Shown here in pieces: positions 49,230-61,292 of a stretch of DNA of 64,000 bases. The position numbers and the translations under genes are program-made. The DNA comes from Aurantiacibacter gangjinensis (GTDB lineage Bacteria; Pseudomonadota; Alphaproteobacteria; Sphingomonadales; Sphingomonadaceae), in NCBI RefSeq assembly GCF_001886695.1, contig NZ_CP018097.1, positions 1,631,001 to 1,695,000 of the forward strand, in the 5' to 3' direction. Below the pieces are notes generated by a model. The model did no database searches. It was given only the letters and a program-made list of their open reading frames with translations, and was not told the DNA's origin. Position 1 is the first letter of the stretch. Every line of letters starts with the position of its first letter.

Positions 49230-49666
49230 AGTGGTGAGTTTCCTCAGTTCATGTTTGCTACCGGCCACGGGTTTTTCCCGGGTCTTGGTCCGCCTCCTTC
49301 GCACTATTGCAAAGGCGTACGGGGCAAGAGGCCGACGTCCACGCGGGGCCGGATGCCACCGTGCGGGTTTCTTCCATCGGGAGATGTGAAGGAACGGGCG
49401 CGCGACTAGGCGAAATCGCGTGCGAAGGCAAGCGAATTGCGCCCGGCGAACCGGGGCTGAGCGGCGCGCGGCGAAGGTGACAAAGGTGACACGGCGAAGC
49501 GCCCCTCAACGAAGCCTTTCCTGGCAGTTTCCTGCGGGTTTGCGGCGCGCCGTGCGAAGTTGACACTTGGTCGGAGAAAACAGGACAATCGAATGCAGTC
49601 ATGGCGATCTTCCTGCCAGACGCTTTTGTCTGTAGGACAGGGGCAGCGAATGAGAGGAGACCGGGC
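49230..49666. promoter_or_regulatory. Divergent control region between rpsA and the Mpo1-like gene
   Basis: 437 bp without a gene. It contains the rpsA leader (49230-about 49310) with a hairpin of CGGG and CCCG arms, a direct-repeat element at 49471-49566 and, near 49650, the GAGGAGA ribosome binding site of the Mpo1-like gene. No clear sigma-70 promoter could be drawn with confidence for either side. Confidence 0.5.
49471..49566. repeat. 9-bp direct-repeat element, copy 2
   Basis: GCGA is followed by two tandem units AGGTGACAA and AGGTGACAC (49475-49492). After 61 bp comes GCGA plus AGTTGACAC (49554-49566), then TT. The geometry repeats that of the element at 16020-16123 (three units, 60-bp gap, solitary unit), while the DNA between is not conserved. 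Confidence 0.78.
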
Positions 49667-50191
49667 ATGACGGCGCTTGCCGAGACGCTTGCCGGATATG
49701 GCGAATATCACCGCGACCATCGCAATGTGCTGACCCATGCGGTGGGCGTACCGATGATCGTGCTCGCGCTGGACGTGCTGCTGGCGCGGCCCGTCTTTAC
49801 CATGCCCTTGCTGGGCGTGGAGCTGACGCCGGCCATTATTGTGAGCGCATTGGCGGCTGTCTGGTACCTGCAACTCGACCTCAAGGCGGGCTTGCTGATG
49901 ACGGTCCTGCTGGCGGTGTTCGTGGCACTTGGCGCGCAGATTGCGGCGATCTCCACGCTGGCATGGCTGGGCGGCGGGATCGCGCTGTTCGTGGTCGGCT
50001 GGGCCTTCCAGTTTATCGGCCACCACTGGGAGGGCCGCAAGCCTGCTTTCGTGGACGATCTGCGCGGCCTGCTGCATGGCCCGCTCTTCATGGCCTATGA
50101 GGGCCTATGGGCGCTGGGACTGGCGAAAGGCACGAAGCGCGAGGTGGATGCGCTGTATGGCTCCAGCGAGAATAGACTCCGCTCATCCTGA
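49667..50191 (+). CDS. Mpo1-like (DUF962) membrane protein
   Basis: 174 residues. DUF962/Mpo1 proteins are iron-dependent dioxygenases of the ER in yeast, acting in 2-hydroxy-fatty-acid alpha-oxidation; bacterial members are little studied. The histidine motifs YHRDHRNVLTHAVGVP and FIGHHWEGRKPAF (HH and E) match the catalytic set, with four membrane helices between them. The start at 49667 has GAGGAGA 8 bp upstream. Its last codons and stop lie in a palindromic repeat (50184-50280): the TGA is part of the repeat sequence CATCCTGAGCC, so the C-terminus NRLRSS may be a recent replacement. Confidence 0.84.
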   Translation: MTALAETLAGYGEYHRDHRNVLTHAVGVPMIVLALDVLLARPVFTMPLLGVELTPAIIVSALAAVWYLQLDLKAGLLMTVLLAVFVALGAQIAAISTLAWLGGGIALFVVGWAFQFIGHHWEGRKPAFVDDLRGLLHGPLFMAYEGLWALGLAKGTKREVDALYGSSENRLRSS

Positions 50192-50280
50192 GCCGGTCGC
50201 GCTGCGCACCCTCTTCGGTTTCCGAAGGGCGACTAACTCGCGCGCTGCCATTTCGTACTTCGACAAGCTCAGCACGAACG
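50184..50280. repeat. Palindromic repeat, class CTTCGACAAGCTCAG, copy 1
   Basis: A degenerate left arm (CATCCTGAGCCGGTC at 50184-50198) and a well-kept right arm (ACTTCGACAAGCTCAGCACG at about 50257-50276) are inverted relative to each other, with TTCGG/CCGAA hairpins between. It overlaps the 3' end of the Mpo1-like gene and ends 25 bp before the cmk stop. Confidence 0.75.
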
Positions 50281-50305: not shown

Positions 50306-50938
50306 TTATCGCGGCGACCGCCCCGTCACCTGCACCACAACCGCAATCGCCTGCGCGATGGCATCGTCCTTACCCAATTCGGTCGTGTCGAGCACGAAGG
50401 CATCCTTGGCGATGGCGAGCGGGGCATCCTTGCGGCCCTTGTCGCGTTCGTCGCGGGCTTCCAGCTGGTCGACGAGGTCGCGCAAAGGCACTTCGCGGCC
50501 CAGGTCGCGCATTTCGCGAAAGCGGCGCTCTGCGCGCGCGGCGGTGCTGGCTGTGACGTAGAGCTTCACCTCGGCTTCCGGCGCGATCACCGTTCCAATA
50601 TCGCGCCCGTCCAACACGGCTCCGCCCGCCTGCGTCGCAAAAGCGCGCTGGCGTTCGAACAGCGCCTCGCGCACCTGCGGATGCACGCTCACCTTGCTGG
50701 CCAGCCCGCCGACGGCCTCGCTGCGCAATTCGGTATTCGCCAGCAGGCTGTCGTGGAAACCGCACGCGGCGAGCGCATCCTCGGCATTGTCGGGATCGCC
50801 GCCATTCAGCTTGGTCTGCCAGCCGACCGCGCGATAGAGCAGGCCGGTGTCCAGATGCGGCAGGCCGAAATGCGCGGCCAGCGCCTTGGCAATCGTGCCT
50901 TTGCCCGAAGCTGTGGGGCCGTCGACGGCAATAATCAT
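50306..50938 (-). CDS. cmk: (d)CMP kinase
   Basis: 210 residues. It phosphorylates CMP and dCMP. The P-loop is VDGPTASGKGTIAKAL at the N-terminus; HLDTGLLYRAVGW, VLDGRDIGTVIAPEA and the LID-type stretch RDLGREVPLRDLVDQLEARDERD complete the nucleotide-binding sites. Its ATG overlaps the stop of the upstream secreted peptidase by 4 bp (ATGA). The canonical aroA-cmk-rpsA run is interrupted here by two genes between aroA and cmk, and by the divergent Mpo1-like gene before rpsA. Confidence 0.96.
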   Translation of the reverse strand: MIIAVDGPTASGKGTIAKALAAHFGLPHLDTGLLYRAVGWQTKLNGGDPDNAEDALAACGFHDSLLANTELRSEAVGGLASKVSVHPQVREALFERQRAFATQAGGAVLDGRDIGTVIAPEAEVKLYVTASTAARAERRFREMRDLGREVPLRDLVDQLEARDERDKGRKDAPLAIAKDAFVLDTTELGKDDAIAQAIAVVVQVTGRSPR

Positions 50939-56373: not shown

Positions 56374-56916
56374 ATGGCAATCGCACTTCGTCTCGCCCGT
56401 GGCGGCGCAAAGAAGCGTCCCTATTATCGCATCGTGGCTGCCGACAGCCGCCGTGCGCGTGACGGCAAGTATCTGGAGCAGCTGGGCACCTACAACCCGA
56501 TGCTCGCCAAGGATGACGAGAACCGCGTCAACCTGAACGAAGACCGCATCCGCTACTGGCTGGGCGTCGGTGCCAAGCCGAGCGACCGCGTGCTGCGCTT
56601 CCTCGATGCTGCCGGCATCATGGAGCGTCCCGCTCGCAACAACCCGAAGAAGGCTGAGCCGGGCGAAGCCGCCAAGGAACGCGCCGAGGAAAAGGCCGCC
56701 AAGGAAGCCGAGAAGAAGGAAGCTGAAGAGGCTGCCAAGGCTGAAGCTGAAGAAGCCAAGAAGGCTGCCAAGGAAGCACCGGCCGAAGAGGCTCCCGCCG
56801 AGGAAGCTGCTGCCGAGGACACCGCTGCCGCTGAAGGCGAAGGCGCTGCAGCCGAAGCTGTGGAAACCGCTGACGAGGCCAAGGAAGAGGCCGCTGACGA
56901 GAAGTCGGAGGGCTGA
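56374..56916 (+). CDS. rpsP: 30S ribosomal protein S16 with long charged C-terminal tail
   Basis: 180 residues against about 80-90 in most bacteria. The first 85 residues are canonical: [33 protein letters not shown] and [20 protein letters not shown]. From about residue 95 the protein is an Ala/Glu/Lys-rich low-complexity tail that turns more acidic toward its end. Extensions of this type are seen in other alphaproteobacterial S16 proteins, but their function is unknown. GGAAAGGT precedes the ATG. A palindromic repeat lies between it and rimM. Confidence 0.95.
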
Positions 56917-56946
56917 TCGCAGGCAAATCGCGCCGCCGTTTCCCGT

Positions 56947-57021
56947 TTGTCCTGAGCTTGTCGAAGGGCGAAATAGATACGGCGGCGCGAATTCGCACTT
57001 CGACAGGCTCAGTGCGAACGG
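56947..57021. repeat. Palindromic repeat, class CTTCGACAAGCTCAG, copy 2
   Basis: Inverted arms GTCCTGAGCTTGTCGAAGGG (56949-56968) and ACTTCGACAGGCTCAGTGCG lie about 27 bp apart. They are flanked by a further inverted pair, GCGCCGCCGT and ACGGCGGCGC. It sits between rpsP and rimM and ends 9 bp before the rimM start, so it lies within the operon transcript. Confidence 0.85.
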
Positions 57022-57030
57022 ATTGCCCTT

Positions 57031-57540
57031 ATGGTTATTGATAAAAAACCCATCATCTTGGCCGCCATCACCGGCGCGCATGGGGTGACGGGCGAAGTGC
57101 GCCTCAAGCTCTTCGGCGACGGGCTCGCCTCGCTCAAACAGCACAAGAGTTTCAATGACGGCGCGCTCACGCCGAAAAAGCTGCGCGACGACAATAAAGG
57201 CGGCGCGATCGCCCGCTTTGCTGAGGCGCAGAACCGCAGCGAGGCGGATAAGCTGCGCGGTACCACGCTCACCGTCAGCCGCGACGCGCTCCCTGCGCTG
57301 GAGGATGGCGAGTATTACCACACCGACCTGATCGGCCTTGCCGCCGTCTCCACCGATGGCAGTGCACTGGGCGAAGTCACCGCCGTGCACAATTTCGGCG
57401 CGGGCGATGTGATCGAGATTACCCTGCCGCCGGTCGAGGGCAAGAAAGCGAAGACCTTCATGGTGCCGATGCGCGTGGAGGCGGTGCCGTCGTGGAATCA
57501 TTCCACACTCACAGTGCATGAAGACTTTGCGGAACGCTGA
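57031..57540 (+). CDS. rimM: 16S rRNA processing protein RimM
   Basis: 169 residues. RimM helps mature the 30S head by binding S19. The N-terminal domain starts IILAAITGAHGVTGEVRLKL, the family signature, and the PRC-barrel domain contains GEYYHTDLIGLAAVSTDG with GEVTAVHNFGAGDVIEI. The ATG is preceded by a palindromic repeat and a poor ribosome binding site, so coupling to rpsP is weak. In most relatives trmD follows directly, but here five unrelated genes intervene. Confidence 0.95.
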   Translation: MVIDKKPIILAAITGAHGVTGEVRLKLFGDGLASLKQHKSFNDGALTPKKLRDDNKGGAIARFAEAQNRSEADKLRGTTLTVSRDALPALEDGEYYHTDLIGLAAVSTDGSALGEVTAVHNFGAGDVIEITLPPVEGKKAKTFMVPMRVEAVPSWNHSTLTVHEDFAER

Positions 57541-57604
57541 GGTTCCGGTTTAGACCGAGCGGATCGAAGGCAAGCCTGCTGCAACCGGCAAGAGGTCATC
57601 CCGC

Positions 57605-57952
57605 ATGGAATTCGTCATCCTTTTCATCCCCTTGCTGCTGGTGCTGGTCGTGCCCCAGCTGGTCGGCCGCGCATTGGGGCGTCGCGACAGCCGCATGAGC
57701 GCCATGCGCGGCGCGTTGCTGGCGGCTCTCCCTGCGCTCTTCCCTTTCCTCCTGCTCGGCCTGCTGATTGCCGCGTCCGACCAGCCGATGAACCTCTCGG
57801 TCTGCACGGCGCCGCTTTGCGATGCCGATACCGGCTGGTGGGAACTGCTCGCCGTACTGGCCGTGCCGTGCTTCATCATTGCCCTGCTCCTGGGCTGGTG
57901 GGGCTTTCGCATGGGCCGGCGCGAGCGTGACGAGGATGTGGTCGGAGGCTAG
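57605..57952 (+). CDS. Hypothetical membrane protein
   Basis: 115 residues with three helices: FVILFIPLLLVLVVPQLVG, LLAALPALFPFLLLGLLIAAS and LLAVLAVPCFIIALLLGWWG. The loop SVCTAPLCDADTGWW has two cysteines, and a basic C-terminal tail (RMGRRERDEDV) is cytoplasmic. No family is recognised. It lies in the DNA inserted between rimM and trmD and is followed at once by another membrane protein gene. Confidence 0.62.
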   Translation: MEFVILFIPLLLVLVVPQLVGRALGRRDSRMSAMRGALLAALPALFPFLLLGLLIAASDQPMNLSVCTAPLCDADTGWWELLAVLAVPCFIIALLLGWWGFRMGRRERDEDVVGG

Positions 57953-57955
57953 GTG

Positions 57956-58288
57956 ATGGCGGGCTCCGTACTTGTCGGCGCGATCTTCCTGCTGTTCGGC
58001 GCGGTCATCCTGAACGGCTTTGCCGCAGGCGTGGCGGCTGCGCTTTACCTGCGGGATCCGAACCAGACGCGCGGCAGCCGCATCGCCTGGTCCGTCCTCA
58101 TCAGTGGCATCGCTTTCATCTCTCTTTTCACCGGCGTCTTCCTTGTCGACCTGGCGGACGGGCCGGTGGTGAGCATGCTGGCGCTGCTGGTACTCGGCGC
58201 GATGGGCACGGTCGTCTCGCTGCCCGGCGCGATCATCATGTCGCGCAAGATCGAGGCCGTGTCGACCGTGGGGCGGACGTTCGATTAG
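57956..58288 (+). CDS. Hypothetical membrane protein
   Basis: 110 residues with four short helices (VLVGAIFLLFGAVILNGFAAG, IAWSVLISGIAFISLFTGVF, LALLVLGAMGTVVSLPG). A GTG immediately upstream of the ATG at 57956 may also serve. It begins 3 bp after the stop of the previous membrane protein gene, so the two are very likely cotranslated. No known domain. Confidence 0.6.
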   Translation: MAGSVLVGAIFLLFGAVILNGFAAGVAAALYLRDPNQTRGSRIAWSVLISGIAFISLFTGVFLVDLADGPVVSMLALLVLGAMGTVVSLPGAIIMSRKIEAVSTVGRTFD

Positions 58289-58330
58289 CGCGCATTGCGC
58301 CGCGCCACGCGCCCGTTTAACGCAGCGCGC

Positions 58331-59290
58331 ATGACCAAGCTCAACGTTGCCATCTGCCAAGCCGCACCCGTTCCGCTCGCCGTGTCGGACGGGATCGACA
58401 AGGCCGTGCGCCTCGCTACCGAAGCGGTGGAGGGCGGCGCGCAGCTTGTGGCCTTTGGCGAGACGTTTCTCGGCGGCTATCCGCTCTGGCTGGACGAAGC
58501 GCCCGGCGCGGCCCTGTGGGACCATCCCGGCACGCGCGCCATGCACCGCATCCTGCTGGAACAGGCCGTGGTGCCGGGTGACGAGCGGCTGCTGCCATTG
58601 CAGGAACTGTGCGACCGCACGGGCGCGGTCATCTCCATCGGCGCGCATGAGCGGGTGCGCCAGAGCCTCTACAACAACCAGATGACCTTCCGCCCCGGCC
58701 TGCCGGTGCTGGACCATCGCAAGCTGGTGCCCACCCATGGCGAGCGGCTGATCTGGATGCGCGGCGACGGCTCCACACTTGGCGTGCATCAAGCGGTCTG
58801 GGGCAGCGTCGGCAGCCTCATCTGTTGGGAACACTGGATGCCGCTCGCGCGCGCGGCGATGCACAATCTGGGCGAGAGCGTGCATGTCGCCTGCTGGCCG
58901 ACCGTGCGCGAAAGCTATGCCATTGCGAGCCGCCACTACGCAATTGAAGGCCGCTGCTTCGTGCTGGCGGCGGGGCTGGTGCAGACGAAGGCGGATGTGT
59001 TCGACGGGCTGGAGCGGCTGGGCGAAAACAGTGGCGCGGCGAAGGAGTTGGTCGAGGCTATCGAAGCCGACGTGCTGAACCGTGGCGGCTCCCTGATCGC
59101 CGCGCCCGATGCCAGCGTGATCGCGCAGGCGGGCGAGGATGAGGAAACGCTGCTGGCCGAGCTGGACCTGTCAGCGCGCGATGAAGGGCTGACGAGTTTG
59201 GACACCGATGGGCATTATTCGCGGCCCGATGTGTTCGAGCTGAGCGTCGATACGCGGGCGAAGGATGGGGTACGGTGGGACATTGCCTGA
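58331..59290 (+). CDS. Nitrilase / carbon-nitrogen hydrolase family protein
   Basis: 319 residues. The catalytic triad is visible: Glu in GETFLGGYPLWLD, Lys in DHRKLVPTHGE and Cys in SLICWEHWMPLAR. The sequence is of the true nitrilase branch (CWEHWMP is typical), which hydrolyses organic nitriles to acids and ammonia; the physiological substrate is unknown. ATG 58331 opens TKLNVAICQAAPVPLAV. The gene is inserted between rimM and trmD along with four membrane-protein genes, and the following gene overlaps its 3' end. Confidence 0.9.
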   Translation: MTKLNVAICQAAPVPLAVSDGIDKAVRLATEAVEGGAQLVAFGETFLGGYPLWLDEAPGAALWDHPGTRAMHRILLEQAVVPGDERLLPLQELCDRTGAVISIGAHERVRQSLYNNQMTFRPGLPVLDHRKLVPTHGERLIWMRGDGSTLGVHQAVWGSVGSLICWEHWMPLARAAMHNLGESVHVACWPTVRESYAIASRHYAIEGRCFVLAAGLVQTKADVFDGLERLGENSGAAKELVEAIEADVLNRGGSLIAAPDASVIAQAGEDEETLLAELDLSARDEGLTSLDTDGHYSRPDVFELSVDTRAKDGVRWDIA

Positions 59291-59642
59291 ATCGGCCATA
59301 ATTCTACTTGTGCTAACCGGCGCAATTGCGCTGTCAGTTGTTGCAGTGCTGTGTGCAAACAACGTCGCAAGCAGACTCGCGCGGCAGACGAGTGGTTTCG
59401 AGTATTGGTCCATCAGCTTAGTTCCGCTGCCGACGATCTCCGTTCTGTACGGTTCATATGTGCTTCTATTCGCCTCCGACTGTGAACCAGTGCCGCCCGA
59501 CTTGATCGTGTTCTGGCATCGCGACACGGTCTTCAACCGGTTTGAAACCGCCTTCTGGTTTTATCTTTTCTGGCCGCTTTATAGCTTGTGTATCGCCATT
59601 CCGACGTCGATGTGGTTCGCACGAAGAAAGCAGAAAAACTGA
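59265..59642 (+). CDS. Hypothetical membrane protein of lower GC content
   Basis: 125 residues with helices AIILLVLTGAIALSVVAVLC, SISLVPLPTISVLYGSYVLL and FWFYLFWPLYSLCIAIPTSM. The ATG at 59265 lies within the end of the nitrilase gene (26-bp overlap); an in-frame TTG at 59283 is an alternative start. Codon use is visibly less GC-rich than neighbours, as for the low-GC gene at 28575, which suggests acquisition. No domain recognised. Confidence 0.6.
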   Translation: MGYGGTLPESAIILLVLTGAIALSVVAVLCANNVASRLARQTSGFEYWSISLVPLPTISVLYGSYVLLFASDCEPVPPDLIVFWHRDTVFNRFETAFWFYLFWPLYSLCIAIPTSMWFARRKQKN

Positions 59643-59721
59643 TTTTCACTGTCGCCGTTCTCACGGTTTAGGCTGGCATCGATCAGGTCTAATGCGGTCC
59701 AAAACTTTTAGGCTTCCTGAA

Positions 59722-60063
59722 ATGAACCTCATCCAATTCACCCCCGACATCCTCATCACCGCGCCCATCATCGCTGCGTTCTGCTGGATGATTGCGCGCG
59801 GGCTGGGCGGGGCGGGGTGGCGGCGCATTGCTGTCGCCGCTTTGTGCGTGCTAATTGCGGTTCCGGTGGCGGCTTATGTGCTTGCCAGCCTTGAGATCGG
59901 CGCGATGCTCGATCCGATGGACGGGCCTGCGGGTCGGCTTGCTATAGCGATCGTCGTGTCGAAGGCGCTTTCCATTGCACTGGTGGCGGCCATCGCGCTG
60001 GCGCTGCTTGCAATCTTCTCGCCGTTTCGGAAGAAAAGTGCGGCGCAGTCCGACGCGGCATGA
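59722..60063 (+). CDS. Hypothetical membrane protein
   Basis: 113 residues. Helices at [40 protein letters not shown] and [20 protein letters not shown], with a basic C-terminal end (FRKKSAAQ). The ATG at 59722 is chosen; a longer frame starting at 59542 overlaps the preceding gene in another frame. Its stop overlaps the trmD start by 4 bp (ATGA), so trmD is now coupled to this gene and not to rimM. Function unknown. Confidence 0.62.
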
Positions 60064-60917
60064 CTTTCGCCGCCACCATCCTCACCCTCTATCCCGAGAT
60101 GTTTCCCGGGCCGCTGGGCGTCTCGCTGGCAGGCCGCGCGCTGGAGCGCGGGGACTGGTCTTGCGAAACCGTGCAGATCCGCGATTTCGCGACGGACAAG
60201 CATCGCACGGTGGACGATACCCCTGCCGGCGGCGGGGCGGGGATGGTGCTGAAGGCGGATGTGCTGGCGGCGGCTTTGGACTCGATCGACGCCCCCTTGT
60301 CCGCTCATGCTGAGCCTGTCGAAGCATCGTCCTTTTTTTCGAGCGCAACGCCAGAAGAAAAAAGCAGCCCTTCGACAAGCTCAGGACGAGCGGGTTTAGA
60401 GGCGGCAGACCTAGCGCCCACCATTCCCATCCTCGCAATGACGCCGCGCGGCAAACCCGTCACGCAAGAGCGGATCCGTCAGATTGCCGCTGGCCCCGGC
60501 GTCACGCTGATTTGCGGCCGGTTCGAAGGGTTCGACGAGCGGTTCTTCGACGCGCGCCCGCAGATCGAACAGGTGAGCCTTGCCGATATCGTGCTGTCTG
60601 GCGGAGAGCCTGCCGCGCTCGCCATACTCGATGCTTGCATTCGCCTGCTTCCCGGCGTAATGGGCGCGGCTTCCAGTGGGACTGAAGAGTCGTTTGAGGA
60701 CGGCCTGCTTGAGTATCCGCAATATACCCGACCTCAGGAATGGGAAGGGCGCACGATCCCTGAAGTGCTGCGATCGGGGGATCATGCGAAAATCGCTGCT
60801 TGGCGCAAGGCGAGGAGCGAGGAAGACACACGGTTACGCAGGCCGGATCTTTGGGAGCGCCACGGTGGCGCTGCGGATCTGTCTGCCTCTGGCGAGCGGC
60901 GAAAAGACAAGGACTGA
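60060..60917 (+). CDS. trmD: tRNA (guanine-N1)-methyltransferase with a repeat-derived insert
   Basis: 285 residues against about 230-250 in relatives. TrmD methylates G37 of tRNAs using SAM, preventing frameshifts. The knotted SPOUT fold is present: [74 protein letters not shown] and [10 protein letters not shown]. Between about residues 81 and 112, just before ILAMTPRG, lies extra sequence encoded by a palindromic repeat (60301-60393), read in frame without a stop. The insert ([20 protein letters not shown] and [11 protein letters not shown]) looks disordered. The gene overlaps the previous membrane-protein gene by 4 bp (ATGA). Confidence 0.94.
60301..60393. repeat. Palindromic repeat inside trmD, class CTTCGACAAGCTCAG, copy 3
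   Basis: The left arm starts CCGCTCATGCTGAGCCTGTC at 60301 and the right arm starts CCCTTCGACAAGCTCAGGAC at 60368. The arms are 26 bp, inverted, with about five mismatches. An inner TTTTTTTC/GAAAAAAG pair closes the central part. The element matches intergenic copies at 50184 and 56947 in its core, but lies wholly in the coding sequence, in a frame with no stop codon. Confidence 0.88.
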
Positions 60918-60920
60918 CCA

Positions 60921-61292
60921 ATGGGTCTGATTCAAGAGCTCGAGGCTGAAGCCATCGGAGCACTCACCGAGGGGAAGGACATCCCCGAATTCCGCGCCGG
61001 TGATACGGTGCGTGTCGGTGTGCGCGTGGTCGAAGGCCAGCGCACCCGTGTGCAGAACTTCGAAGGCGTGGTGATCGCGCGTTCGAACCGTTCGATCAAT
61101 TCCAATTTCACCGTCCGCAAGATCAGCTTCGGCGAAGGTGTGGAGCGTGTGTTCCCGCTCTATTCGCCCAATATCGACAGCATCACCGTGGTTCGCCGCG
61201 GCGTCGTGCGTCGTGCGAAGCTCTACTATCTGCGCGGCCGTACCGGTAAGCGCGCACGTATTGCGGAGCGCCGGGAGAACGTGGCCAAGTAA
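60921..61292 (+). CDS. rplS: 50S ribosomal protein L19
   Basis: 123 residues, the standard length. [40 protein letters not shown] and [20 protein letters not shown] are L19 signatures. L19 lies at the 30S-50S interface. It starts 3 bp after trmD and is closed by a strong terminator, ending the cluster. Confidence 0.97.

Follow-up and report, generated by a model that had tools for sequence, protein, structure and literature searches.

How does the gene for TrmD, an essential enzyme in bacteria, come to carry a DNA palindrome within its reading frame, and what becomes of such an insert in related genomes? The question is raised by a 64,000-nt stretch of the Aurantiacibacter gangjinensis genome (the window), for which a preliminary description proposed that a 93-bp palindromic repeat lies in frame inside trmD.

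trmD carries a palindromic element in frame

The window protein scored 273 bits against the NCBIfam TrmD equivalog (cutoff 220), and no second TrmD locus was found in this genome. Two further matches to the TrmD query are valS and glyS, in both of which this repeat is present. The proposed palindrome is borne out. Its arms are 71% complementary across 93 nt, RNA of positions 60295-60400 is predicted to fold at -46.5 kcal/mol (z = -5.9; none of 200 shuffles as low), and the 285-aa frame stays open (Table 1). Together with about one codon per side, the element yields a 32-residue in-frame reading ahead of the ILAMTPRG segment.

The element accounts for most of an unusually long loop. Alignment of TrmD with the two best-matching solved chains runs to residue 76 and resumes at 123, indicating that residues ~77-122 are extra. 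The loop has 71 residues versus 29 in an insert-free congener (L020), a gain of 42, of which the palindrome contributes 31. In the AlphaFold model of the window protein, the insert is a predicted coil (pLDDT ~45-56) with the flanking helix and strand retained, in line with the disordered loop that had been expected. This model is moderate (mean pLDDT 73.7, pTM 0.63), as is that of L020 (mean pLDDT 75.2), which also has helix 66-74 and places the next strand at 82-91. The best 50 of 307 PDB structure matches were all TrmD, with an rmsd of 12.7-15.7 Å, so domain placement in the TrmD model is unreliable.

Table 1. Positions in the window of trmD, its insert and related repeat copies
Feature	Position	Strand	Description
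trmD, tRNA (guanine-37-N1)-methyltransferase	60060..60917	+	285 aa, insert in frame
Family A palindromic element	60301..60393	+	93 nt, 31 codons, wholly inside trmD
Left arm of trmD element	60301..60345	+	core 60310-60324, match on - strand
Right arm of trmD element	60349..60393	+	core at 60370-60384
Extra TrmD loop	60288..60425	+	residues ~77-122, predicted disordered; helix 66-74 precedes it and strand 124-133 follows
Intergenic family A copy	56943..57021		two good arms; between ORFs 56374-56916 and 57031-57540
Degenerate family A copy	50184..50280		one intact core 50258-50272

The element belongs to a dispersed repeat family

The trmD element belongs to a repeat that we call family A, the CTTCGACAAGCTCAG type, which consists of two cores ~45 nt apart. 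With up to two mismatches allowed, the core CTTCGACAAGCTCAG occurs five times in the window versus 0.10 expected, and the core CTTCGACARGCTCAG occurs 72 times in the 2.72-Mb genome versus 0 for a reversed control. Combined with the fold, which 0/200 shuffles equalled, these counts rule out a chance resemblance of the core. The stretches of this genome that we read contain 23 family A core pairs.

Two intergenic copies had been cited as sharing the layout of the trmD element. One has two good arms, and the other is degenerate: an inverted-arm search reported no matching arms in it, and 23/200 shuffles fold as low (z = -1.1, not significant). The left end of the degenerate copy touches the end of ORF 49601-50191, and the copy adjoins ORF 50306-50938 on the - strand, which we take to be cmk.

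The two-armed copy lies in a region of its own interest (56374-61292). The ORFs that it separates are presumably rpsP (56374-56916) and rimM (57031-57540), and other ORFs stand between rimM and trmD. The order rpsP-rimM-trmD-rplS, usual in many bacteria, is therefore interrupted here.

One TrmD loop holds unrelated palindromes in many relatives

We examined the same loop in 121 deduplicated trmD rows (140 loci minus 9 same-genome repeats, 7 unread loops and 3 identical rows). Inserts were present in 44 rows, and 75 loops were short; L055 is scarred and L051 unassigned. This row set is enriched for inserts, since 80 loci entered as top matches to a query that bears an insert and 30 more were chosen for split or weak matches. 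Among the 80 best matches, 24 have a palindromic insert, 2 have a short extra loop (L051, L055) and 2 are unreadable. The presence of inserts in many separate genomes rules out a single faulty assembly.

Within the genus, 6/37 genomes have an insert, as established by reading 30 loops and judging the other 7 from hit gaps. Measured from GMV to PRG, genus loops are either short, at 29 or 32 residues, or long; close relatives therefore exist from which the extra loop is missing. In the rest of the bacterial family, 18/195 genomes have an insert confirmed by loop reading. These 195 are the genomes outside the genus in a sample of 199, 3 of which gave no match. Loops were read in the 30 genomes with split or weak matches, and single strong matches were counted as empty. 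Five of the 30 loops were unreadable; in two of these genomes, G218 and G233, the parts of trmD lie on different contigs. In other families of the order, hit gaps indicated an insert in 0/22 judgeable genomes of 24 (one had no match, one a partial match only). None of the 18 order-level loops read, out of 20 fetched, resembles the inserts described below, and some are naturally longer.

The DNA of the long loops is mostly palindromic and differs in sequence among relatives. Sorted by eye, the 44 occupants fall into six families: A (11 inserts), B (4; the TTCGTCTCGAGCGCAGTCGAGA type), C (1), D (11), E (8) and F (9). Families C, D, E and F are GC-rich paired hairpins. The preliminary description had reasoned that loops of the same length with unrelated DNA would mark the match as chance and not insertion. 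Such loops do occur in many relatives; their DNA, however, is mostly palindromic and belongs to other repeat families. Since the DNA of the other loops is itself mostly palindromic and short-loop relatives exist, these data indicate insertion at a recurrent site.

To assess kinship among the families, we compared local alignments of insert pairs with those of shuffled sequences and scored them against the shuffled maximum. No pair joining A or B to C-F exceeded this maximum (0/435), and 5/44 A-B pairs did. Sequence kinship links families C, D and E with one another and, weakly, with F (18/99 D-F pairs and 8/72 E-F pairs above the maximum). As judged by sequence, the six families make at least three unrelated groups.

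We also counted the cores of families A and C in 16 genomes. G010, the only genome with a C occupant, ranks first for C (76 and 74 per strand). For A, two genomes with A occupants, G021 (146 cores) and G000 (this genome, 72), rank first and third. G023 is second for both A and C cores, yet it has a D insert in trmD.

Occupants of the loop probably turn over

We mapped occupancy onto a tree built from TrmD without the loop together with RplS (a quick search, with 41 open forks). Labelling loops as short or filled requires 22 changes, at least 12 of which are forced by starred branches, and labelling all occupants requires 39. Some clades are fully occupied, yet by different families, and insert-free relatives are common. 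Occupants differ, for example, between the neighbouring rows L047 (D) and L120 (E), L060 (E) and L126 (F), and L127 (A) and L132 (E), and one clade holds three families in L135 (F), L136 (E) and L137 (A). These neighbour groups have SH-aLRT values of 87-93, below the 95 that earns a star. Starred forks join filled and short-loop rows in L006/L016, L057/L109 and L031 with L098/L099. The number of changes overcounts insertions, because family D inserts from different genera have a common interior and common edges, which suggests one old allele kept or spread.

Two loci point to how occupants are lost and moved. In L055, 75 nt of an L002-type element are missing in frame, which suggests a deletion scar and a way in which occupants disappear. 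In a comparison of L031:3001-4250 with L032:1782-3035, 243/250 columns agree around the insert (97%), versus ~84% in the rest of the gene; the insert itself is 99% identical and its flanks 86-90%. Recombination in trmD is likely, and this near-identical tract likely reflects recombination between species, by which occupants would move.

These observations bear on two other accounts of the loop. We hold it as a tentative possibility that the occupant is chiefly swapped as an allele: unrelated palindromes would arrive in one lineage and then cross species through homologous recombination in the conserved trmD flanks. Inteins and introns likewise share conserved sites; an allele swap in trmD, in contrast, would involve neither splicing nor a homing enzyme.

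The second account, which we consider unlikely, supposes one ancestral insertion that was rewritten by gene conversion with the palindromes of each genome, with few or no new insertions. It would fit the likeness of family D inserts across genera, the kinship of C, D and E (and weakly F) and the change of family within occupied clades, and switches among C-F may indeed represent conversion rather than insertion. However, A and B have no sequence in common with C-F, so homology-based conversion inside the element would be hard, and many relatives retain the short ordinary loop.

Folding of the inserts and conservation in the 3' third of trmD

Most of the inserts fold strongly as RNA: 38/44 are matched by no more than one of 60 shuffles. 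Selection for an mRNA hairpin that tunes trmD or its neighbours, for which any strong palindrome would suffice, could account for this folding and for clades that remain occupied as the family changes. However, hairpins are weak in L037, L137, L033 and L134 (matched by 48, 15, 8 and 5 of 60 shuffles, respectively), although the frame is open. In ten family D inserts, the one family covered by this analysis, none of 30 predicted pairs shows a kept two-sided change, and several are broken in some rows. Moreover, 75/121 rows have a short loop, and an Rfam scan found no family near its gathering score. The missing two-sided changes in D and the weak hairpins with an open frame disfavour an RNA function of the insert, and we regard the selected hairpin as quite unlikely.

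A separate part of the gene, its 3' third, shows strong conservation of synonymous codons at 60621-60668, 60705-60788 and 60813-60860. In 119 trmD genes, excess codon homozygosity is ~0.3-0.56 there versus mostly 0.02-0.23 elsewhere. The DNA of this region is near-invariant in 116 rows, with little covariation; inspection by eye of 11 order-level relatives showed no such conservation. We found no Rfam match, no sigma-70-type hit and no terminator hit in it. It lies just upstream of the ORF at 60921, presumably rplS, and might serve that gene as an embedded leader RNA or a promoter.

Palindromes lie in frame in other genes

The search of this genome for further in-frame copies of the core was fruitful. 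At least 5 of 48 family A core clusters lie in frame inside recognised genes, namely trmD, valS, glyS, truB and one 2-oxoacid dehydrogenase E2 gene. This is a lower bound from Pfam or NCBIfam scans of 16 distinct ORFs that lie over family A elements; in one batch of ten, seven had no family, and in the other three the element precedes the domain. The glyS gene (L164:716-3187) carries two in-frame palindromes at different places, one of family A and the other, we assume, of a dRS3/CGTC-1-like type. Other genomes have palindromes in sufC, hrpB, carA and a pyruvate dehydrogenase E2 gene. In G010, 8 of 40 listed family C clusters are inside genes: one each in trmD, gcvPB, metH and uvrA, two in valS and two in uup (one of them a single unit).

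Recurrence at one position is also seen outside trmD, as placed by alignment or by eye. One position in valS holds family A in this genome and in L210, and family C in L193, L206 and L211, and one in glyS holds three kinds of palindrome (L236-L238, L246, L251). Family A occurs at a similar place in truB of four genomes (L142, L258, L267, L270), and likewise in sufC of two (L186, L260) and hrpB of two (L181 and a partial copy in L275).

These genes bear on whether a specific DNA target in trmD, recognised in a homing-like manner, explains the single position. L135, L136 and L137, of one genus, do carry F, E and A near one point, by eye. However, one target would have to serve unrelated families, the flanking bases vary among lineages, and members of these palindrome families also lie in valS, glyS, truB, sufC, hrpB, uvrA, metH, gcvPB, uup and carA, which makes such recognition very unlikely.

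We also considered whether only tRNA enzymes are hit, as seemed the case from this genome, which sufC, hrpB, carA, pyruvate dehydrogenase E2, uvrA, metH, gcvPB and uup in other genomes rule out. Four of ~13 distinct hit genes act on tRNA (trmD, valS, glyS, truB). A lean of the inserts toward tRNA enzymes is possible on this count, which carries no control for gene length and essentiality.

The inserts read as short, Gly/Pro/Ser-rich peptides

The 44 inserts encode 35-55 aa (median 41) that are rich in Gly, Pro and Ser (38%) and poor in I, F, M, Y, W and C (<4% together). The used frame is open in all 44, by construction. It is the least hydrophobic forward frame for A, B and D, and it is tied for F, where the tied frame is open in 7/9. 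For C and E the used frame is not the least hydrophobic, and the less hydrophobic frame is closed. Where the arms of family A are intact, the used frame reads AEPVEA or PELVEG, and PSTSSG; the second forward frame is open in 5/11 and more hydrophobic, and the third is open in 0/11. Each of the three family A pairs inside genes (trmD, valS and E2) covers 75 nt, a length divisible by three; of the 20 remaining pairs read here, 6 have a span that is likewise divisible.

It is highly improbable that a flexible loop is adaptive for TrmD and other tRNA enzymes, with the peptide under selection: the DNA is unrelated, yet length and composition are similar, and several hit genes act on tRNA, but the loop is absent from many relatives and apparently deleted in L055, its length and composition may reflect the elements themselves and the requirement that the frame stay open, and most hit genes have no tRNA role.

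Relation to known repeat systems

The preliminary description likened the trmD element to the Rickettsia palindromic elements (RPEs), for which NCBIfam includes models. Protein scans with NCBIfam and Pfam (E ≤ 0.001) gave TrmD families only, in a comparison by protein profiles. The likeness holds in effect, as an in-frame palindromic insertion in trmD. A MITE review describes RPEs as short palindromes of several families, present in intergenic DNA as well as in frame within genes (PMC10969869), and the trmD repeat is likewise a short palindrome found in both settings. In contrast to RPEs, it has a different host, and unrelated families occupy one loop of one gene across genera.

Intragenic REPs are a closer parallel. 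Di Nocera (2013) places GTAG/CGTC REPs, units of 20-40 bp that form their own stem-loop and terminate in GTAG or CGTC, within the ORFs of numerous species (PMC3733652). Among the genes it names as hit are truB and tRNA synthetases in 'E. lithoralis' and S. alaskensis, as well as recB of two Xanthomonas, where different REPs lie at roughly one position. The words "trmD" and "methyltransferase" are absent from its main text. The REP same-site case comprises a single gene from two species; the TrmD loop, in contrast, is used across a bacterial family and is found filled, empty and scarred. Family A, in which two cores lie ~45 nt apart and some copies read CGTCCTGAGC, may or may not belong with these REPs.

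REPINs consist of paired inverted repeat units with a spacer and are moved by RAYT (Y1) transposases. Family A likewise has paired inverted units with a spacer in tens of dispersed copies (72 cores, 23 core pairs), and the trmD element has the terminal inverted repeats of a MITE. Unlike a REPIN/RAYT system, this genome gave 0 hits with Y1_Tnp (PF01797), the one transposase profile searched; a control search with PF01797 was positive in 5/14 known genomes. Inverted repeats also occur inside protein genes of Nematomorpha mitochondria (PMC6649704); these are animal mitochondrial genes, and the accessible part of that source describes no dispersed bacterial repeat family.

In-frame palindromes are thus of an already known kind, represented by Rickettsia and by intragenic REPs, including those in tRNA enzymes of Erythrobacter. 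Our literature search, which most subscription papers lay beyond, found no paper on palindromes in trmD. What appears to be new, with no printed precedent found, is that unrelated palindromes occupy one trmD loop across a bacterial family, with occupants apparently turning over.

Discussion

We conclude that the trmD insert is probably a dispersed palindrome in a permissive TrmD loop that is repeatedly filled, emptied and given a new occupant. Palindromes would land widely, moved in this genome without a Y1 transposase. Copies within genes would survive only where they have a frame-keeping length, an open frame and a flexible Gly/Pro/Ser-rich peptide. The helix-strand loop of TrmD would meet these needs easily and so serve as a permissive landing pad. 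Because the loop would tolerate such peptides easily, occupants would arrive at the site, be deleted, and be replaced or swapped anew, in part as trmD segments recombine between species. For TrmD function, the insert itself is most probably neutral or close to it. The TrmD loop thus has the look of a site at which small repeats arrive, are exchanged and decay while the gene is kept open.

A tolerated loop of ~40 residues, which we take to adjoin the cofactor-binding region, may also be of some practical note, since many of the solved TrmD chains among the matches listed are inhibitor complexes. For the bacterial family, neighbouring species whose trmD loop is filled with unrelated palindromes, empty or scarred provide a naturally replicated experiment on how repeat DNA gives rise to disordered loops in proteins. 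They make it testable how short palindromes spread without a known transposase and whether in-frame palindromes are passengers or useful.
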